Below, in pieces: positions 1 through 11,222 of a stretch of 11,487 nt of DNA. The notes under the pieces are model-generated. The model was given only the letters and a program-made list of their open reading frames with translations, made no database searches and had not been told where the DNA came from. The position numbers and the translations under genes were made by a program. The DNA lies in contig DLMG01000399.1 of the NCBI GenBank assembly GCA_002479245.1, positions 1 through 11,487 of the forward strand, in the 5' to 3' direction. Origin of the DNA: Verrucomicrobia subdivision 3 bacterium UBA7542 (GTDB lineage: Bacteria; Verrucomicrobiota; Verrucomicrobiia; Limisphaerales; UBA11358). How positions within the stretch are numbered: position 1 is the first letter of the stretch; each line of letters begins with the position of its first letter.

Positions 1-8
1 ATCCAAAC

Positions 9-75
9 TTCACGGGCCAGGGCAGACTTCACGGGCCAAGGCCGGTGAAGTAGCAAACTGAAGCCTTCACGGGCC
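9..75. repeat. TTCACGGGCC repeat cluster with hairpin
   Basis: TTCACGGGCC occurs three times on the plus strand (9-18, 28-37, 66-75), the last two followed by AAGG. The third copy is the right arm of an imperfect hairpin: GGCCGGTGAAG (40-50) pairs with CTTCACGGGCC (65-75) around a 14-nt loop, with one mismatch. The same arms recur at 2960-3028 and around the GIY-YIG gene at 4421-4675. The cluster lies downstream of the vapC at 206-616. Confidence 0.75.
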
Positions 76-205
76 AAGGAAAGTTGAAAGTTGAAATTGG
101 AAAAGCTGAAACGCTAAAATCATTTCTGCTTTCCACTTTGATTTTCAGTTTTTGCCTTTGGTCTTGTTGATCAGCAGCCGCGTCAGGCGGACGAGGAAAT
201 GATCG
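76..205. other. A-rich intergenic stretch downstream of vapC
   Basis: Low-complexity GAAAGTTGAAA-like DNA runs from about 79 to 120, followed by T-rich sequence. It matches in style the A-rich tracts near 1019-1170, 3718-3750 and 11230-11270. No gene is supported. A short minus-strand open stretch just past the vapC stop (about 140-200) reads like a protein tail but lacks a credible start. Confidence 0.4.
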
Positions 206-616
206 TTATAGCAACGGGTCAATGATCCGCACGCCTGCGGGTTCGAAGTGTCGCTGGTTATGCGTGGCAAGCGTGTGGCCGTGAAACAGGGCGGTGGCTG
301 CAATCAAGGAATCCTCACACGTCATCGTGCGGTTTCTGCGCTTGAGGTCGGCGAGCAGCCCCTTCCATCTCACCAGCACCGGCTCAGTCAGTTGTTCAAT
401 GACCGGCGAAAACCTTTGCCGGGTCTCTTTGAGCCAGGCCGCCAGGTCCGAGCGATGCGTGGCGGGCGCTTGTCGCAGCCCATATTCGAGTTCAGCAAAG
501 GAAACCACGCTGACAAAAAGGTCTGAGTCGTGTTGCGCCAGCCACGGGACAAGTTTTGCCGGCACGCGCTTGCGTTCCAAAAACGACAGCAGGTCCGTGT
601 CAATCAAGAAGCTCAC
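206..616 (-). CDS. vapC: VapC-like PIN-domain toxin
   Basis: Predicted ribonuclease toxin of a type II VapBC module, 136 residues, the usual size for the family. PIN-domain landmarks are visible: the first acidic residue in LIDTD (Asp6), Glu42 in FAELEYG, Asp102 in CEDSLIAATAL, and the late ATHNQRHF motif with Asn120. The last motif usually reads like TRNxxDF, so the His before Phe is a small deviation. I chose the GTG start at 614-616 because it overlaps the antitoxin stop by 4 bp (GTGA, 613-616) and places the first PIN beta strand at the N terminus. The frame stays open upstream to 811, but that part is the antitoxin gene read out of frame. VapC enzymes typically cut specific RNAs when the antitoxin is degraded; the target cannot be told from sequence. 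Confidence 0.9.
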   Translation of the reverse strand: MSFLIDTDLLSFLERKRVPAKLVPWLAQHDSDLFVSVVSFAELEYGLRQAPATHRSDLAAWLKETRQRFSPVIEQLTEPVLVRWKGLLADLKRRNRTMTCEDSLIAATALFHGHTLATHNQRHFEPAGVRIIDPLL

Positions 617-867
617 TTGAATGGCAGTGGATGACGTTTCGGCGGGGGCATCGGCCAAGGGCAGCGGGAAAACTGCTTGAGCAACGCTTTGCCGGAAACC
701 CCGCGCCGTTTGTCTGGTTTGGGCGTCAGGATGATGCTGTTTCTGCCGTCGCGCAGGGGATGGACCTCCACCGCGCCGCCGCGCGACAAGCCCGAGGCAT
801 CGCGCCACCATTTGGGCAGCGTGCTCTGACCCACGTTGGAAACGGTCATCGTGTCGGAATCTTTCAT
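613..867 (-). CDS. vapB: AbrB-type VapB antitoxin
   Basis: An 84-residue antitoxin. The N-terminal half fits a swapped-hairpin AbrB/SpoVT DNA-binding domain: TVSNVGQSTLPKWWR followed by GLSRGGAVEV and a DG turn (about residues 8-50). The C-terminal half (about 51-84) is basic and proline-rich and would be the flexible toxin-wrapping tail. The stop codon overlaps the GTG start of vapC by 4 bp, so the two are translationally coupled. A perfect 9+1+9 bp palindrome ends one base before the ATG and contains an AAGGA Shine-Dalgarno-like stretch, so self-repression by the VapBC complex is likely (inference). VapB proteins with AbrB folds commonly pair with this PIN subfamily. Confidence 0.88.
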   Translation of the reverse strand: MKDSDTMTVSNVGQSTLPKWWRDASGLSRGGAVEVHPLRDGRNSIILTPKPDKRRGVSGKALLKQFSRCPWPMPPPKRHPLPFK

Positions 868-868
868 G

Positions 869-887
869 TTTTAAGGATTCCTTAAAA
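869..887. promoter_or_regulatory. Palindromic candidate operator of vapBC
   Basis: Perfect inverted repeat TTTTAAGGA-T-TCCTTAAAA, with 9-bp arms around one central base, directly abutting the vapB start codon (865-867). A TTGACG hexamer (897-902, minus strand) lies upstream as a possible -35, but I see no good -10 at 16-18 bp. The position and symmetry fit an AbrB-type antitoxin operator. On the mRNA strand the palindrome includes the AAGGA that could serve as ribosome binding site, so bound complex would block both transcription and start-site access. Confidence 0.65.
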
Positions 888-952
888 GCGGGCGTCCGTC
901 AACCCCGGGTTGGGAAAATATCAGCCGCCACTTTTTTAACGGGCCCGTTCGT

Positions 953-1011
953 GAGTTGAGGGTTTCGCTCCGTGGAATAATGGCGGCAATTCCACAGGGT
1001 GAGGGTTGAGG
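953..1011. repeat. 59-bp dispersed repeat, copy 1
   Basis: This stretch is identical to 11164-11222 except for one base (T at 969, C at 11180). It contains a 7-bp inverted repeat, GTGGAAT (972-978) and ATTCCAC (989-995), around a GC-rich 10-nt loop, and ends in GAGGGTTGAGG. In both copies an A-rich tract and GAC-type heptamers follow. It is noncoding on either strand. Confidence 0.85.
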
Positions 1012-1181
1012 ACACGATTAAAAGTAGAAAATTGAAAGCAGAAAGCAGAAATGCCGGATCACAGACCACAGACCACAGACCACAGACGACGAGACTACGG
1101 ATGACAGACATCACAAAATCAAAAGCTAAAATTCTGAAATTATCAAATCAAATCAAAATACTGAAAGGACAGCGACAGGCA
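1012..1181. repeat. A-rich tract plus GACCACA heptamer array
   Basis: The gene-free stretch from 888 to 1228 holds copy 1 of the 59-bp repeat, then this segment. An A-rich GAAAGCAGAAA-type tract (about 1019-1052) is followed by at least three tandem CAGACCA heptamers (about 1061-1085) and degenerate relatives, then another A-rich tract (1110-1170) with AATCAAAA and CTGAAA words. The same order of modules follows the 59-bp repeat at 11223-11313. I see no gene here. Confidence 0.6.
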
Positions 1182-1214
1182 GCCCCGGTAAAAAATGCGA
1201 GCCATTTCACGGGG
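1182..1214. repeat. Degenerate TTCACGGGG hairpin unit
   Basis: CCCC (1183-1186) plus a decayed GTGAAAT-like left arm faces ATTTCACGGGG (1204-1214) across a GCGAGCC-type loop. It resembles the units at 2960-3028 with a damaged left arm. It lies 15 bp past the stop codon of the KilA-N gene, that is, at the 3' boundary of that module. Confidence 0.5.
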
Positions 1215-1228
1215 TAAAGATGCCTGTT

Positions 1229-2056
1229 CTATGTCAGCAACCGGTGGCTGGGTGCGGTGAGCGTCTGCATCTGGCGGATGGCAATTGCGTTGAGCCGTTT
1301 GAGCCGGTCGTTCTGCGGCAGGGTCATATGGATGAACTCGGCGTTCATGCCCTCAATGTTGGCCAGCACCAGCAGTTGCTCGATGCTGGCGTATTCGCGC
1401 ATGTTGCCTTCGAGCTTGGGATTGGCGTCGCGCCATTGCTTGGCGGTCTGGCCGAAGAGGGCGACGTTGAGCAGGTCGGCCTCGGTGGCGTAGGTGATGG
1501 CGGCTTGCGCGGGCGTCACCTCGGGCGGGATGAGGCGGGCTTTCACCGCGTCGGTGTGGATGCGGTAATTCAGCTTGGACAAGGTGCGGTTGAGATTCCA
1601 GGCGAGGGAGAGGCGGCGGTTCTCATCGTCCTTGAGCCGCTGGAATTCCTTGATCAGGTAGAGTTTGAACTCCGAAGAAATCCAGGAAGCGAATTCAAAG
1701 GCAATATCCCGGTGGGCGTAAGTGCCGCCATAACGGCCTGATTTTGAGGTGATGCCAATGGCTTGGGTGGCTTCAATCCATCGTTGAGGAGAAAGGACAA
1801 AGTAGTTGCTGCCCGCCTCATTTCTAAACCTCTCGAATTCGAGAGGTTTAAAATCCGGAGTGCTCAATTTCTCCCACAACCCCAGGAATTCAATGGTGCT
1901 GCGACCACGCATCCAGTTGTTGATGATGGCAAACGGCTCTTGTGCATTCCGATGCCGGGCGATGTCCGTCAACGAGATGTAGTCCTGATCGTTCTGATTC
2001 AGGACGGCTATGGCCGTGCCCTGGACTTCGATGATTGTTTTTTTGGGTTTGATCAT
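1229..2056 (-). CDS. KilA-N domain protein
   Basis: A 275-residue KilA-N family protein. The N-terminal part (about 10-130) carries the family hallmarks: YISLTDIAR, NWMRGRSTIEFLGLWE, the conserved SGRYGGTYAHRDIAFEFASWIS block (residues 106-127), then FKLYLIKEFQRLK (130-142). The C-terminal half is helical and has no motif I recognise. KilA-N is a putative DNA-binding domain from phage and large DNA viruses; similar full-length proteins occur as single genes near bacterial mobile elements and defence genes, with no settled function. The ATG at 2054-2056 directly precedes the conserved IKPKKTIIEVQG start. The frame is open further upstream but would overlap the HEPN gene. There is no strong ribosome binding site, and a tiny 20-codon frame ends 4 nt before the start. 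A perfect 26-bp palindrome sits in codons 69-78. Confidence 0.85.
   Translation of the reverse strand: MIKPKKTIIEVQGTAIAVLNQNDQDYISLTDIARHRNAQEPFAIINNWMRGRSTIEFLGLWEKLSTPDFKPLEFERFRNEAGSNYFVLSPQRWIEATQAIGITSKSGRYGGTYAHRDIAFEFASWISSEFKLYLIKEFQRLKDDENRRLSLAWNLNRTLSKLNYRIHTDAVKARLIPPEVTPAQAAITYATEADLLNVALFGQTAKQWRDANPKLEGNMREYASIEQLLVLANIEGMNAEFIHMTLPQNDRLKRLNAIAIRQMQTLTAPSHRLLT
1825..1850. repeat. Perfect 26-bp palindrome inside the KilA-N gene
   Basis: The arms TAAACCTCTCGAA (1825-1837) and TTCGAGAGGTTTA (1838-1850) are exact reverse complements with no spacer and an EcoRI-type GAATTC centre. It encodes about residues 69-78 (FKPLEFERF) of the KilA-N protein without breaking the frame. A PxEF-like word occurs at this place in relatives as far as I recall, so selection on protein may contribute. 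Confidence 0.9.
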
Positions 2057-2060
2057 AGGT

Positions 2061-2123
2061 TCAGGAACTGCCCAGTGCGGCCATGAAGGCTTCGAGTTTG
2101 GTCTGGTTGGTTTCCGCACGCAT
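2061..2123 (-). pseudogene. 20-codon leader or gene remnant before KilA-N
   Basis: An ATG-to-TGA frame of 20 codons (starts MRAETNQTKLEAFMAALGSS) lies in the 100-bp gap between the HEPN gene and the KilA-N start. The KLEAFMAALG wording resembles the N termini of nucleotidyltransferase-like DUF6036 antitoxins as I recall them, so it may be a truncated gene start. It could equally be a coupling leader peptide, since its stop precedes the KilA-N ATG by 4 nt, or chance. Low certainty. Confidence 0.25.
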
Positions 2124-2157
2124 GATTCAAAAGCGGCAAGCGGTTTGAACGATTGAT

Positions 2158-2613
2158 TCAGGTGGACAAAATCTGATGGGCATGACCGGCTACCCGCCCG
2201 CAAATGGCGTCAAAAACCGGCTTTTGCTCCCGGCAGTAGGCAAAAATCTCCGCCGCCTTCGCGCCCGCGTAATCGTGAGCAATCATGTTACGTACATCCT
2301 TCATCTCCCGCAATTCTTCGGATCGGTCCACGAATCCGCGCTGCTCGGCGCGGTTGACCACGTCCAGCAATGTGCCTTCGGGTTTCAACTCCACTCGATC
2401 CAGACTGCGGAGCACCTTGTTGACCAGCAAGTCCACTGAGCGGGCAAAACGTCCGGTGAAGGCCTCGGCGCTTTCCAATTGTTTTTCCGTCGCGTCTTTC
2501 AAGGTATCCGGCAATCCGGCAACTTGCTGGAAGGAATAATCCAAGTGCCGCCGGGCGTTGGCCAATTCCGCCAGGCCCTGTTCGAGCAAGCTCCGGGCAT
2601 GATCCTGTTTCAT
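2158..2613 (-). CDS. hepT: HEPN-domain toxin, HepT type
   Basis: A 151-residue helical protein of the HEPN superfamily, the toxin half of a HepT/MntA-type module. The catalytic RX4HXY signature is intact: Arg108, His113 and Tyr115 in VRNMIAHDY. In studied HepT proteins this motif gives RNase activity, and the partner nucleotidyltransferase AMPylates the Tyr to silence it; transfer to this pair is inference. The start ATG (2611-2613) overlaps the nucleotidyltransferase stop by 4 bp (ATGA), so the toxin depends on translation of its antidote. Helical heptad-like sequence fills residues 5-75. The alternative name is HI0074-like nucleotidyltransferase substrate-binding protein, an older label for the same fold. 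Confidence 0.85.
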   Translation of the reverse strand: MKQDHARSLLEQGLAELANARRHLDYSFQQVAGLPDTLKDATEKQLESAEAFTGRFARSVDLLVNKVLRSLDRVELKPEGTLLDVVNRAEQRGFVDRSEELREMKDVRNMIAHDYAGAKAAEIFAYCREQKPVFDAICGRVAGHAHQILST

Positions 2614-2897
2614 AATTTTATTCCCGTTTCCTGCGCCAGGGTTGCCAGCGGCTCGTCCATTTGATCCCGCCGCCGCACCACCAAGTCCAGTTGCTGCCAG
2701 CCGATGCGATCCAGAATCCGGGTGCGCAACCGCAACACATCGCGAAAACCAAGCTGGTCCGACACCACCAACAGATCAATATCCCCGCCTTTGGCCGAAT
2801 CGTTTGCCCGCGAACCGTAGAGATAGATTTCCGCAGCCGGGTCTAATCGCCGGACTTCTTCGCCAACTGCTTTGGCTTCATTCGCGCCCAGTCTCAT
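2610..2897 (-). CDS. mntA: MntA-like minimal nucleotidyltransferase antitoxin
   Basis: A 95-residue minimal nucleotidyltransferase with a complete active site. GSR (residues 28-30) opens the motif, Asp39 and Asp41 in GGDIDLLV are the metal-binding pair, and Asp71 in QQLDLVV is the third carboxylate. The C terminus (EPLATLAQETGIKL) is typical of MNT proteins paired with HEPN partners. In characterised systems the enzyme transfers AMP from ATP to a Tyr of the HEPN toxin. It is the first gene of a two-gene operon and overlaps hepT by 4 bp. A TTGACG hexamer (minus strand, 2927-2932) may be a -35 box; the candidate TATTAC downstream lies at a poor 19-bp spacing. Confidence 0.88.
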   Translation of the reverse strand: MRLGANEAKAVGEEVRRLDPAAEIYLYGSRANDSAKGGDIDLLVVSDQLGFRDVLRLRTRILDRIGWQQLDLVVRRRDQMDEPLATLAQETGIKL

Positions 2898-2959
2898 GGC
2901 TGTAATATCCCCAAAAACCTCACGGCCGTCAATTCAAGCAAAGCAAAAGCAGAAATGCT

Positions 2960-3028
2960 GCCCAGTGAAATAGGCGGGGCCATTTCACGGGCCTCGGCCG
3001 GTGAAGTAGGCGGCCCACTTCACGGGCC
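2960..3028. repeat. Two tandem hairpin units with compensatory change
   Basis: Unit 1: GCCCAGTGAAAT (2960-2971), loop 2972-2981, ATTTCACGGGCC (2982-2993). Unit 2: GGCCGGTGAAGT (2996-3007), loop 3008-3016, ACTTCACGGGCC (3017-3028). Both loops start AGGCGG. The stem pair that is A:T in unit 1 is G:C in unit 2, so both arms changed together. Unit 2 is followed by AAGGAAAG, as at 76-83. The units lie between mntA and parE. Confidence 0.8.
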
Positions 3029-3048
3029 AAGGAAAGCGGAAATTTATT

Positions 3049-3100
3049 TCAGCTTTCCAGATTTGTGTTTTCAGCTTTCCAGATTTGTGTTTTCAGCTTT
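3049..3100. repeat. 22-bp tandem repeat, about 2.4 copies
   Basis: A 22-bp unit beginning TCAGCTTTCCAGATTTG is repeated exactly at 3049-3070 and 3071-3092, with a partial third copy to 3100. It ends about 19 bp before the parE stop codon. It is noncoding and recent, since the two full copies are identical. Confidence 0.85.
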
Positions 3101-3118
3101 TACCCTCCGGCTTCCATC

Positions 3119-3436
3119 CTAAAAAAAACGCTCCGGCTCCTGGCGCCAGTTGACATTGCCGTAGAGGACTCGCTTGATTTCCACGCTTTTGCCGGCGGGT
3201 TTGTAGAAAATCAGCCAGCGGTTGAAGGGCGGTGGCACAACGAAGAAACGCACGCCTTTCAAAGAACGATGCTTGAAGCGAGCCGGCGGTCCCATCTCCG
3301 GAAATTGCGCCAGCCGGTCGAAAGACTCAAAAGCGGCATCCAGAAAATCCAGCGCGGACTGTTCGTTGTCAGCAGCGATGAAATCCCGTGCGGCGATCAA
3401 GTCCTCATCCGTTTCCGGTGACGCCTGCCAATTCAT
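3119..3436 (-). CDS. parE: ParE/RelE-family toxin
   Basis: A 105-residue ParE-type toxin, typical in length. The family pattern is visible: an N-terminal helical hairpin (about 7-46), RLAQFPEMGPPAR (41-53), the LKGVRFFVVPPPFNRWLIFYKP strand run (59-80), and IKRVLYGNVNW near the end (87-97). ParE toxins usually poison DNA gyrase; RelE relatives cut ribosome-bound mRNA. The PEMG and RVLxG wording favours ParE. The start ATG (3434-3436) overlaps the antitoxin stop by 4 bp (ATGA). Confidence 0.9.
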   Translation of the reverse strand: MNWQASPETDEDLIAARDFIAADNEQSALDFLDAAFESFDRLAQFPEMGPPARFKHRSLKGVRFFVVPPPFNRWLIFYKPAGKSVEIKRVLYGNVNWRQEPERFF

Positions 3437-3684
3437 CGCTTCAAATTTCCGTAGATGCGCGCCTTGCGTTCGGCAGTCATGGCCGTGGCCGGCCGGGCTT
3501 GTAACAGCAAAGCCTCCAATTCATCCGCGTTGCGGAAGCTCGCGCTTTCGGGGCCCTGGCCCCGGGTGACGGCATCCAGCATCGCCAGCGCCTGGTGAAT
3601 GACCTCGCTTTTGTTCGAGGCGCGACCGGCGCGAATTTGCCGCTGGATGATCGTTTCGTAGTAATCAGTGCGCGTGTAACCCAT
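3433..3684 (-). CDS. parD: ParD-like ribbon-helix-helix antitoxin
   Basis: An 83-residue antitoxin upstream of and overlapping parE. Residues 7-37 (DYYETIIQRQIRAGRASNKSEVIHQALAML) match the two helices of a ParD ribbon-helix-helix domain, including the RAGRASNKSEV turn; the rest would bind the toxin. The usual N-terminal beta strand is short or diverged. I chose ATG 3682-3684; a TTG at 3706-3708 would add eight residues. A good TTGACA hexamer upstream leaves room for only a few bases of 5' leader, and AAGGG sits too close to the ATG to act as a normal ribosome binding site. The ParDE complex would be expected to repress its own promoter. Confidence 0.82.
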   Translation of the reverse strand: MGYTRTDYYETIIQRQIRAGRASNKSEVIHQALAMLDAVTRGQGPESASFRNADELEALLLQARPATAMTAERKARIYGNLKR

Positions 3685-3690
3685 GCCCTT

Positions 3691-3718
3691 ACAGTAAACT
3701 ATTGGCAAATGCTGTCAA
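3691..3718 (-). promoter_or_regulatory. Candidate parDE promoter
   Basis: A perfect -35 TTGACA (3713-3718) is followed after 16 bp by TACTGT (3691-3696), a weak -10. The inferred start of transcription falls at or just before the ATG at 3684, suggesting a leaderless mRNA. The short TTAC-N-GTAA inverted repeat around the -10 could be part of the operator. Confidence 0.45.
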
Positions 3719-3957
3719 CCAAATCAAAAGCAGAAAACGCTGAAAAAACCGGACTACTGACTACGGGACAACTGACCACGGACCACGGGCTACCGACCAG
3801 GGACCACTGACAACAGACCACTGACTAGGGACCACTGACAACAGACCACGGACCACGGACCACGGACCACGGACTACCGACTAGGGACCACCGACAACAG
3901 ACCACGGGACTACAGGATAAGAGACCACAGGACCACTGACCACTGTCTTCCCATTCA
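3719..3957. repeat. A-rich tract and long degenerate heptamer array
   Basis: An A-rich CAAAAGCAGAAAA-type tract (about 3719-3750) leads into roughly 195 bp (3751-3945) built mainly from 7-8 nt words of the form GACCACN, GACTACN and GACAACN, including four consecutive GGACCAC-type copies around 3856-3883. No reading frame here looks like a protein despite open stretches, because a 7-nt period passes through all frames. It separates parDE from the second vapC. Confidence 0.8.
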
Positions 3958-3985: not shown

Positions 3986-4408
3986 TCAACCGCCCTTGGG
4001 CGGGGATTTTGGTGACAACAACGGATTTTCCGCAATACCCGCCGCCCACGGTTGGCCAATCAAGTCGCCGTCCAGTGTGGCCAGTTTTAATCCATGCCGC
4101 TTCGCTAAAGCGATCAGATGCGCATCAGTTGTGTTTTTGGAACCCGTCTTTGGCGAAGCCGTGCCATCCACATCGTCTGCCAGGAATTGATGTCCGGGAC
4201 GCGCATGTAATTTTTTCAAAGTCTCCTGCGTTTCTTCCCAGCTCGCCCCATAAGCGCCACTCAGGCTGATTCTGACAAAACCCAGTTCACCGATTGCGCA
4301 AGTATGGAATGTGTCAACCGAATCAATCCAGGCCTTGGCGTCCGAATGATTGGCATGGGTTGTCCAGCGTGACGCCAGAATCAGATTCACATCCAGCAAC
4401 CAGTTCAT
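3986..4408 (-). CDS. vapC: VapC-like PIN-domain toxin, separated from its antitoxin
   Basis: A 140-residue PIN-domain protein with all acidic positions: Asp6 in LLDVNLIL, Glu41 in GELGFVR, Asp95 in TTDAHLIALAKRHG, and Asp113 or Asp115 in ATLDGDL. It belongs to the VapC subgroup beginning with LLDVN and is a probable RNase toxin. The usual arrangement is antitoxin and toxin touching; here a GIY-YIG gene sits between this gene and the likely antitoxin (4685-4900). The C-terminal SPKSPPKGG tail is read from a CCGCCC-TT-GGGCGG inverted repeat (3990-4003), so the natural end of the protein may have been altered by a repeat. There is no ribosome binding site before the ATG, and the gap to the upstream gene is 12 nt. 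Confidence 0.85.
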   Translation of the reverse strand: MNWLLDVNLILASRWTTHANHSDAKAWIDSVDTFHTCAIGELGFVRISLSGAYGASWEETQETLKKLHARPGHQFLADDVDGTASPKTGSKNTTDAHLIALAKRHGLKLATLDGDLIGQPWAAGIAENPLLSPKSPPKGG

Positions 4409-4420
4409 GGCCAGTCTGCT

Positions 4421-4675
4421 TCAGCCCGTGAAATAATTTCTGCATCTGGATTTGAGGTAACGTTTTCCGTAGGTTGTTTTCAAATACTTTTCCCGCCTGA
4501 AAGCATCCTTTTCGTCAAGACACGCCTCGTAGTAGATCAACTCAAGTGGTCGTCTGCCACTGGTTGACGGAACCTTGCCCGCATTGTGCTGGGCAATCCG
4601 GTTGCGCAGATCACCTGTGCAGCCGGTGTAGAGCTGACCATCGTAAGCGGAGCGAAGCACATAAACGTAGATCAT
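4421..4675 (-). CDS. Single-domain GIY-YIG nuclease
   Basis: An 84-residue stand-alone GIY-YIG endonuclease domain. MIYVYVLRS carries the first motif tyrosine (Tyr5), LYTGCTGDLRNRIAQHN carries the second motif (YTG, 16-18) and the conserved Arg, and Glu62 in RREKYLK is the metal-binding glutamate. The C-terminal KTTYGKRYLKSR block is typical of the small UvrC-like or YhbQ-like proteins common in many bacteria. The final residues YFTG are encoded by the arm sequence ATTTCACGGGC, which recurs as a dispersed repeat in this window. The gene lies between an antitoxin and its PIN toxin, without its own ribosome binding site, 9 nt after the antitoxin stop. Its substrate is unknown. A role as homing-type or transposition nuclease is inference; a DNA repair or housekeeping role is the alternative. 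Confidence 0.9.
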   Translation of the reverse strand: MIYVYVLRSAYDGQLYTGCTGDLRNRIAQHNAGKVPSTSGRRPLELIYYEACLDEKDAFRREKYLKTTYGKRYLKSRCRNYFTG

Positions 4676-4693
4676 CGTTCAATTTCACAGGCC
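4424..4693. mobile_element. Candidate GIY-YIG element with inverted arms
   Basis: On the plus strand GCCCGTGAAAT (4424-4434) and ATTTCACAGGCC (4682-4693) are near-perfect inverted repeats enclosing the nuclease gene. TGCTT (4417-4421) and AAGCA (4694-4698) just outside extend the symmetry. The arms equal those of the short hairpins at 2960-3028, where a loop replaces the gene. The right arm overlaps the stop codon of the antitoxin, and the left arm encodes the last residues of the nuclease. No target duplication is evident. The element status is my inference. Confidence 0.5.
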
Positions 4694-4900
4694 AAGCATT
4701 CGGTTCACGTTTTCCGGTGTCATGGGCGGTGCGCCGGGCGGCGCTTCCAGCAACAGGTCATCGCCTTGCCGCACAAGGCGGGCTTTTCCGGGTTGCGAAT
4801 TTGCCGGCCGGGATCGCGCGGCCAGAAAGCGGATCAATTCTTCCTTCTGTTCCGGTGGCAGCGCCTCTGCGGCGGTTTCAATTTCAGCCAATGTGCTCAT
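4685..4900 (-). CDS. vapB: VapB-like antitoxin, C terminus possibly altered
   Basis: A 71-residue acidic helical protein beginning MSTLAEIETAAEALPPEQKEEL, a pattern typical of small antitoxins paired with PIN toxins, followed by a loop and the toxin-binding-like tail GAPPMTPENVNRMLGL. Relatives usually run a few residues further and overlap the toxin start. Here the last codons (GGC CTG TGA) lie inside the inverted arm of the GIY-YIG element, consistent with truncation by insertion. A well-formed promoter precedes the gene with almost no leader. The assignment rests on the N-terminal pattern and on the PIN gene two genes downstream. Confidence 0.75.
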   Translation of the reverse strand: MSTLAEIETAAEALPPEQKEELIRFLAARSRPANSQPGKARLVRQGDDLLLEAPPGAPPMTPENVNRMLGL

Positions 4901-4939: not shown

Positions 4940-4971
4940 GCCCAGTGAAGCAACCGCACACTTCGTGCCGG
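4940..4971. repeat. Degenerate hairpin unit upstream of vapB
   Basis: The left arm GCCCAGTGAAG (4940-4950) is well conserved. The right arm ACTTCGTGCCGG (4960-4971) is a decayed version of ACTTCACGGGCC. The left flank (AAGCTGCCCAGTGAA) matches that of the unit at 2960. Confidence 0.5.
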
Positions 4972-5451
4972 TCAATTCGCAGGCGCATTTATGCCTGGCC
5001 CGCAATCGACGTCCAAAAGGTTGATGGCTGAGCCCCGAACTCCGATAAATCGCGAGCAGGCGCATTCGGGGTGCAGTTGAGGGTTGAGAGTTTTAAATTC
5101 CCGACAACCCGCGGCCCGGCAACCATCAATTATTTTATTTCCGCTCACCTTTTCGACCGTTGAGGGTTGAAGGTCTTTGGACGCCCAACTCCCAGCGATC
5201 GGTCTGCAAAATCAAACTTCAAATATCAAATCCGAGGCCCGGCCTCACACCCGGTCCCGCACAACTTCGCACCAACGCCAAGGAAGGCCGTCCCGCCAAG
5301 CGGGACGGCCTTCCTTTCCGAGGCCTTTGTCCGGGTTGGCGGGGGTGCGAAGTTGCGCTCCGACTAAGCCCACCCCCGGTTGTTGGGCGGGGGAGCGGCT
5401 TGAAAATCAGCGCTCCGGCAGCCATCCGTGTGCATTCGCGAAATCGGTGTC
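4972..5451. other. Noncoding region between vapB and the wzc-like gene
   Basis: No credible gene on either strand. GTTGAGGGTTGA words at about 5077 and 5159 recall the ends of the 59-bp repeat. A GCCCCGAACTCCGATAAAT word (about 5031) resembles one at 11415-11430. A nested inverted repeat occupies 5263-5354, and a C-rich/G-rich imperfect hairpin (about 5369-5394) lies nearer the wzc-like stop. Confidence 0.5.
5263..5354. terminator. Nested inverted repeat, possible operon terminator
   Basis: A perfect 17-bp stem (5280-5296 with 5300-5316) closes a 3-nt CAA loop. It is enclosed by an outer 11-bp inverted pair, AACTTCGCACC (5263-5273) and GGTGCGAAGTT (5344-5354). TCCGAGGCC is also repeated directly (5231-5239, 5317-5325). 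It lies about 135 bp past the wzc-like stop codon. There is no clear T-tract on the minus strand, so it may be a mobile or REP-like element instead of, or as well as, a terminator. Confidence 0.5.
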
Positions 5452-11153: not shown

Positions 11154-11163
11154 AGACGGTTGA

Positions 11164-11222
11164 GAGTTGAGGGTTTCGCCCCGTGGAATAATGGCGGCAA
11201 TTCCACAGGGTGAGGGTTGAGG
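11164..11222. repeat. 59-bp dispersed repeat, copy 2
   Basis: 58 of 59 bases match 953-1011, same orientation. The internal inverted repeat GTGGAAT...ATTCCAC is conserved (11183-11206). It directly follows the phased GGACAT repeats and again precedes an A-rich tract and GAC-type heptamers. Confidence 0.85.

Follow-up and report, generated by a model that had tools for sequence, protein, structure and literature searches.

We find that a small GIY-YIG nuclease gene in a Verrucomicrobia subdivision 3 bacterium is the sole gene of a bounded unit with covarying inverted ends. Units of this kind occupy precise, recurrent sites, are near-identical within diverged flanks in one pair and show an orientation bias. 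On comparison of sequences, a family of bounded, mobile and intron-less GIY-YIG elements is well supported. We consider it probable that these are minimal selfish elements of ~270–300 bp, driven by the GIY-YIG endonuclease, that end in two matching inverted arms, lack an intron and spread by homing-like copying. The window (the whole stretch of DNA analysed here, 11,487 bases) is an entire contig, C87, of an assembly of 4.4 Mb in 428 contigs that is ~70% complete (genome G000). The element and the host genes around it are:

4423 to 4693, minus strand: complete element of 271 bp, with the GIY-YIG gene between the two arms; arms anchored, insertion by empty-site comparison
4681 to 4693, minus strand: 5' arm in gene orientation, GGCCTGTGAAATT, which also codes the last codons and the stop of the upstream antitoxin ORF
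4423 to 4435, minus strand: 3' arm, TATTTCACGGGCT, which also codes the YFTG end of the nuclease
4421 to 4675, minus strand: GIY-YIG nuclease gene, 84 aa (PF01541)
4419 to 4422, minus strand: host flank GAAG beside the 3' arm (target side); the closest empty homologues have CTTGAAG or TTGGAAG there
4694 to 4696, minus strand: host flank CTT beside the 5' arm (target side), by empty-site comparison
4685 to 4900, minus strand: antitoxin-like ORF, 71 aa, the host gene at the insertion; no Pfam match
3986 to 4408, minus strand: PIN-domain gene, downstream partner in the split operon (PF01850, 31.4 bits)

The nuclease carries a GIY-YIG domain (PF01541, 58.7 bits against a cut-off of 22.6). Its only Pfam matches are PF01541 and PF10544, and no Y1 (HUH) tyrosine transposase is among them; nor does the element encode a transposase of any other known class (DDE, Ser or Tyr). 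Residues R26 and E62, which we take to be the active-site arginine and glutamate of GIY-YIG nucleases, with their catalytic roles, are invariant in an alignment of 35 sequences, and the closest solved structures by sequence are the UPF0213 proteins 1zg2 and 1ywl. NCBIfam gave no match for the protein. A part in a defence system was set aside because PADLOC gave the nuclease no match.

Inverted arms across the family

In gene orientation, the sequence of the unit is CTT-GGCCTGTGAAATT-gene-TATTTCACGGGCT-GAAG, with inverted arms of 13 nt each, and a TGCTT/AAGCA symmetry outside the arms is also present in the window. The enclosure of the gene by inverted arms, first proposed from the letters of the window alone, is borne out by its genome. 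We found eight GIY-YIG genes there; the two that belong to this subfamily are both flanked by arms, and the arm core has no match at the loci of the remaining six. The second copy, on contig C333, encodes a protein of 74% identity and is enclosed by GGCCCGTGAAATA and TATTTCACGGGCC. Its host gene retains the start and a segment matching positions 70–105 of the IVP profile (24.5 bits, below the cut-off), and the middle part appears to be gone or displaced.

A protein search returned 3173 relatives, the best 120 of which are listed, and a scan of one genome per species returned 385, of which the best 80 were taken; the rows of the protein tree bear 24 phylum labels, and most of the records are metagenome-assembled. 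Together with the two copies of the window's genome and locus L010, the 80 make up 83 loci (labels for the same record are L038 and L159/L121, L058 and L162, and L091 and L177). The two arms were located independently with a loose profile; since every one of the 83 loci exceeds its threshold, a profile match is no evidence in itself, and arms were accepted when the two arms of one locus matched at no fewer than 10 of 13 positions. By this measure 75 of the 83 loci have matching terminal inverted repeats, as an insertion sequence would, and the arms do recur around homologues, as had been expected; the eight others are L039, L044, L077, L091, L094, L099, L113 and L117. The arm consensus is ACCCYGTKARATA ... 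TATYTMACRGGGT, and the 75 elements are 265–368 bp long (median 286).

Arm positions 5, 8 and 10 are variable and were left free in the profile. At these positions, the left and right arms agree in 65, 75 and 77 of the 83 loci, against means of 38.5, 36.4 and 40.7 when the pairing is shuffled. None of 2,000 shuffles reached the observed values, a significance that is overstated because shuffling ignores relatedness, yet all 75 elements are distinct. This covariation shows that the two ends must match, and would fit a hairpin or two copies of one protein-binding site.

Occupied sites, empty sites and short hairpins

The window element separates the antitoxin-like ORF from the PIN gene. We searched for the PIN protein in 294 relatives (67 with a match at 1e-12), fetched 30 loci and read the upstream region in 12. 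Ten of these 12 PIN operons lack the element, as in G132, where the empty site is ATGCTTGAAGACTGGCC. The empty antitoxin homologues of G009 and G132 end in ..LEDWP, and six of the ten empty operons have an antitoxin of a different type, AbrB-like on our reading, with a similar end motif. The same place is occupied in two genomes, that of the window and G181 (L121). The three operons closest to the window in their PIN proteins (81, 72 and 67–68% identity, the last in two pieces) are empty, and the more distant G181 (53%) is occupied, so that either two separate insertions took place here or the element has been lost repeatedly. Between the window and G181 the element (78% identity) is no more alike than the left flank (78%; right flank 57%), so this pair alone gives no sign of recent movement.

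Loci L082 and L107, in records named Desulfurellaceae and Desulfurellales, carry the element at the same IVP site. Their elements agree at 283 of 286 positions, against 134 of 175 (77%) in the left flank and 211 of 260 (81%) in the right, and the near-identity includes the arms and drops off close to them. Judged from the alignment, this pair shows recent spread or conversion. The element exceeds both of its flanks in identity in all seven pairs compared; in the six besides L082/L107, selected because their elements or sites are similar, identity is 0.75–0.88 for the element and 0.44–0.85 for the flanks, the right flank of L080/L112 (0.85) nearly equalling the element (0.87). Together with the empty and the recurrent sites, near-identity within diverged flanks upholds the view that gene and arms form a discrete mobile element. 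The protein tree has 37 phylum changes (minimum 23, shuffled mean 47), which fits transfer as far as 84 columns with most forks unresolved can indicate.

Two other ideas about spread and target were dropped. One was carriage by phages, a single scan of viral contigs having given four pattern matches and no confirmed relative. The other was rRNA or tRNA as the target: 12 loci chosen for few open frames contained no rRNA, and one tRNA away from the element.

The window also contains short hairpins:

40 to 75, no strand assigned: short hairpin with the same right arm as the units at 2960–3028; direct repeats of the right arm at 9–18, 28–37 and 66–75
2960 to 3028, no strand assigned: a pair of short hairpins from a distinct repeat family, GCCCRGTGAARTAG..AYTTCACGGGCC(AAGG) or nearly so

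Both stretches are genuine hairpins, as the sequence-only reading had held, and those at 1182–1214 and 4940–4971 are, by eye, as degenerate as it described them. Its proposal that they are deleted derivatives of the element fared worse. The hairpins at 2960–3028 and their relatives have a consistent extra purine relative to the element arm (GCCC-R-GTGAA versus GCCC-GTGAA). As an exact pattern, the GCCCRGTGAARTAG..AYTTCACGGGCC repeat occurs in 9 of 320 genomes of the order (control 0), with 0–37 matches per genome (37 in G193 and 11 in G010, some overlapping). Repeat and typical full element occur together in one of these nine genomes, that of the window, although the genomes of the order are incomplete and single absences are uncertain. 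In G123, another repeat genome, the only GIY-YIG match is a weak one within a 1103-aa frame. A short form of the other arm type, again as an exact pattern, was found in none of the 320 genomes. The window's short hairpins are thus probably not derivatives of the element; the two kinds of arm are so alike in their letters that some link seems likely. A high-copy REP family driven by the GIY-YIG gene was rejected for this order, because hairpins and typical elements co-occur only in the window's genome.

Both the window (1–79) and contig C333 (1–98) start inside short-hairpin arrays, so the repeat probably interrupted the assembly and has more copies than were counted. Window positions 946–1011 and 11157–11222 are 94% identical copies of a 66-nt repeat that contains a further short hairpin, CCGTGGAATA..AATTCCACAGGG (by eye), whose arms resemble those of the element.

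In other phyla, short hairpins were present in 9 of 50 element-bearing genomes tested among those of the 80 loci (control 0). The hairpin has the arm letters of the resident element in G088, G085, G075, G103 and G077, differs from the resident arm at one or a few letters in G099, G070 and G073, and is clearly different in G095. A looser hairpin pattern gave 22 matches in the fetched loci against none when reversed, some of them overlapping or touching the element. Outside the host order, the short hairpins may be derivatives of the element.

Element-type short hairpins were also seen in frame within host genes (L045:5311-5341, L082:2050-2092, L107:796-838, L114:6741-6779 and L176:1756-1816), the host frames being those of HsdS, IVP and others, with 10–20 residues added. 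Rickettsia palindromic elements are short palindromes that lie in frame within protein genes, and we know of no enzyme for them. The five hairpins are like these elements (PMC4316617) in their in-frame insertion; sequences and hosts differ.

At further GIY-YIG loci, flanking inverted repeats score at least 12 in 15 of 66 cases, compared with 5 of 468 null windows; removing nine loci of the element's own subfamily, which account for 7 of the 15, leaves 8 of 57. Other GIY-YIG subfamilies have different palindromes, namely CCGCGTAAA..GCTTCG.. at L011, L166 and L182 and the self-palindromic CAGCCTTCGCCCGCCG.. at L030 and L017, and the pairing of a small GIY-YIG gene with a palindrome may be wider than one subfamily. 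Different inverted repeats, partly self-palindromic and with scores of 10–37, were noted at L011, L166, L182 and L165 and at L030, L017, L172, L012 and L179.

These observations could also be read the other way round, with an older host palindrome, REP-like and perhaps RAYT-driven, into whose loop the GIY-YIG gene landed, the hairpins being targets. The short hairpin family does occur without a typical element in eight of its nine genomes, other palindromes flank other GIY-YIG subfamilies, and Y1_Tnp/RAYT-type genes are present in 29 of 32 genomes tested; the last, however, are found in carriers and non-carriers alike and therefore discriminate nothing. A landing in a pre-existing palindrome is difficult to reconcile with the ten empty PIN operons, none of which has a hairpin at the site, with the near-identity of L082 and L107, which covers the arms and stops close by, and with the way in which the arms track the gene over many phyla. 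We regard this course of events as unlikely.

Host genes, orientation and the edges of the element

We examined interrupted host genes by running Pfam on each half separately. The YhcG_C profile is divided into 1–91 and 92–156 in L063, and L058 is likewise broken at 91. The IVP profile is divided into 1–45 and 49–105 in L101 and into 1–41 and 47–106 in L047, where the left half is below the Pfam cut-off; so, as happens with short pieces, are the left half of L070 and the right halves of L082 and L107. Phage_integrase is divided into 4–86 and 94–169 in L088, Phage_int_SAM_4 is cut at 68 of 85 in L010, and SLFN_AlbA_2 is split from HATPase_c_4 in L050 and L053. Elsewhere the element lies between operon genes: AbiEi and AbiEii (L060), ATP synthase beta-like and epsilon-like (L072), and HsdS and HsdR (L045). 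At least one sense flank had a Pfam match in 22 of the 27 loci tested, some of them on one flank only; there was no match for L097, for L064 (left flank only) or for L042, L078 and L083 (minus strand).

Several motifs are hit more than once. The IVP motif is a recurrent site, with 14 loci linked by pairwise similarity, five of which are confirmed by Pfam (L101, L082, L047, L070 and L107), and L158 added by eye. The integrase motif QAF^NALV is hit in L010 and L164 (integron-integrase-like, by eye), and the YhcG site is shared by L058 and L063. Bro-N-like genes have two insertion positions ~11 codons apart (L049/L054 and L061/L065), and each group shows the other group's site uninterrupted. Site-specific insertion in conserved motifs and empty alleles, by which homing is recognised, are both found.

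At 48 of the 75 loci, open frames of 45 codons or more run in the direction of the nuclease gene on both sides of the element. When each insertion was assigned the strand on which its two flanks stay open for longer, 44 were sense and 8 antisense (p = 4e-7, 52 loci), the other 23 loci having neither pair longer than 45 codons. Among the eight antisense calls, L038, L054, L058 and L092 are sense by homology, and L042, L078 and L083 are the three that had no Pfam match on the minus strand. Upstream of the gene, the distance from arm to start (as used here) is 0–47 nt; this leaves little room for a promoter and, with a dependence on host transcription, would be the simplest reason for the sense bias.

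Direct repeats of 3–8 nt just outside the arms were found in 0 of the 75 loci, and 2-nt repeats in 2 (2.9 expected); the edges of the element are fixed only to within a few bases, so that a target duplication of very small size could escape notice. The left flank is TTC in 25 of the 75, TTT in 19 and CTT in 10, and the right flank is AAA in 29 and GAA in 11. The outermost pair is C/A in 26 loci and T/G in 18, and it is Watson–Crick in 16, which is rarer than chance (as few in 3 of 10,000 shuffles; Fisher p = 3e-5 for the table of C/T by A/G). This pattern fits a target TTC^AA / TT^GAA, on either strand, and would also suit a stem of RNA or DNA with a conserved wobble at its base. At some sites the outer TTY..RAA looks to us element-derived, with host bases replaced, and the outer TTT..GA of the Bro-N sites seems to have been brought in by the element.

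C/A and T/G are isosteric wobbles in RNA, and the scarcity of Watson–Crick outermost pairs could point to an intron-like unit, the arms of which pair in the host mRNA so that the unit is excised, or skipped by the ribosome, while the host gene remains functional and the nuclease homes. Insertion within conserved motifs, mainly in sense and with open flanks, would be expected of such a unit. Yet the pattern equally fits the proposed target, and mismatches in the arms are as often of the G.U type as of the A.C type (22 to 20), which indicates no preference for an RNA strand. Rfam contained no known intron or ribozyme family for any of 25 sources including the window, the sole match being a tRNA in L103 that lies off the element, and a group I or II intron with a homing endonuclease was rejected on this basis. 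A large middle part of the C333 host gene is missing, and at the Bro-N site, on our reading, cutting out one segment never gives back exactly the intact sequence. We find an intron-like unit quite improbable.

It is very unlikely that the gene is resident and non-mobile, with arms that serve as signals for transcription or mRNA stability. The constant closeness of the upstream arm to the gene agrees with such a role, but the distribution is patchy (a match at 1e-15 in 20 of 320 genomes of the order, weaker GIY-YIG relatives included), unrelated genes are interrupted at recurrent sites, empty sites exist, and in one pair near-identity is limited to the unit. That the arms are an accident of codons for a conserved protein tail (YFTG or YLTG) with a chance match upstream, the objection anticipated for the 3' arm from the start, can be dismissed almost entirely: although the right arm overlaps the coding sequence in 64 of 75 loci, it lies wholly after the stop codon in the other 11, changes in the tail codons (CTA, CTC, TTA, TTC, TTG) are mirrored in the upstream arm, null windows seldom reach the score seen around GIY-YIG genes, and the covariation of the arms refutes it.

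Mechanism and known systems

For a selfish element copied in a homing-like manner, we propose that the nuclease cuts DNA at short sites within conserved coding motifs and that repair would copy the element into the break, as in homing. The ends would be recognised as a pair, whether in duplex form or folded into a cruciform; it is likely that the nuclease drives the element and that the ends act together. Expression would probably occur by read-through from the host gene, so that mainly sense insertions would persist. An 84-aa nuclease domain with no DNA-binding domain would be unusual for such a choice of site.

A more ambitious version, which we put forward tentatively and as the less probable outcome, is that the elements may form a new autonomous class of mobile DNA of ~0.27 kb, bounded by inverted repeats, in which the single-domain 84-aa GIY-YIG protein would be a transposase that recognises the cruciform made by its own paired ends. 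Its sister subfamilies would pair with other palindromes, and through the short in-frame derivatives, palindromic elements so far without an enzyme would be assigned one.

The GIY-YIG homing endonuclease genes include those of I-TevI type and the phage seg genes. Like them, the element has a nuclease of this family, inserts into conserved coding motifs, is patchily spread and has near-identical copies whose flanks have diverged; it differs in that no intron or intein was found, in its own covarying inverted ends, in a nuclease that has no separate DNA-binding domain, and in that one scan confirmed no viral relative. IS200/IS605 elements have an HUH transposase, no target duplication and subterminal hairpins. 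The absence of target duplication, the short target and hairpins at the ends are common to both; IS200/IS605 elements are longer, and their hairpins are subterminal, whereas the hairpin of the element encloses the gene. The integron attC site has the consensus RYYYAAC..GTTRRRY, and an attC cassette was rejected because the arms are arranged the other way round and in many cases have no GTT/AAC (GTG/CAC in the window, by eye).

The RAYT enzymes have the HUH fold. Like RAYT/TnpA_REP with REP or REPIN sequences, the element ties small palindromes to a nuclease-like gene and has short non-coding relatives, and the comparison drawn in the sequence-only reading is useful as an analogy. As a system it does not carry over: the enzyme is a GIY-YIG nuclease and not a Y1 HUH transposase, the element is low in copy number with the gene inside the palindrome, and it is sited within genes. 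In place of the many extragenic copies per genome of RAYT/REP, the incomplete genome G000 has two typical full copies.

The 23S rRNA intervening sequences carry a gene for the IVP four-helix protein. They, too, have inverted ends around one small gene; gene and target differ, and the element often targets the IVP gene itself. Such intervening sequences are mentioned in PMC11270868, which assigns every GIY-YIG ORF of CPR rRNA insertions to an insertion that resembles neither group I nor group II introns. Its authors suggest recent horizontal transfer of these ORFs and place them outside the context of homing, a judgement that may count against our proposal; the term inverted repeat is not used there. 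The likeness to the element lies in insertions of this non-intron kind and in the occurrence of the element family in CPR as well; the ORFs of PMC11270868 differ in lying in rRNA genes. The term inverted repeat is likewise absent from PMC1564403, which classifies the GIY-YIG superfamily. Among the papers listed by a full-text literature search that covered few subscription journals or preprints, none, judged by titles and the openings of abstracts, gives an account of GIY-YIG genes enclosed by palindromes in bacteria.

If our proposal is correct, these would be among the smallest self-sufficient mobile elements, spread across many bacterial phyla and so far annotated merely as 'GIY-YIG nuclease' or 'putative endonuclease'. 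They would help to explain the abundance and patchiness of small GIY-YIG genes and the splitting of conserved genes, and possibly also the intron-less GIY-YIG insertions in CPR rRNA genes. They would supply a candidate enzyme for palindromic elements in frame within bacterial genes, and, with a minimal nuclease, paired ends and a short, precise target, a simple system for the transition from nuclease domain to transposase.

The surroundings of the element in the window have features of their own. Positions 206–3708 hold a toxin–antitoxin-like run (PIN, MazE-like, KilA-N, HepT-like with nucleotidyltransferase, and ParE), in which a ParD-like gene beside ParE falls just below the cut-off. Degenerate tandem repeats of 7/14 nt (GACCACG/GACCACT) lie at 3748–3945 and 1056–1105, beside several toxin–antitoxin-like genes. 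Between this toxin–antitoxin island and a polysaccharide-export-like cluster (by eye), a perfect 17-bp inverted repeat with a 3-nt loop occupies positions 5280–5316.
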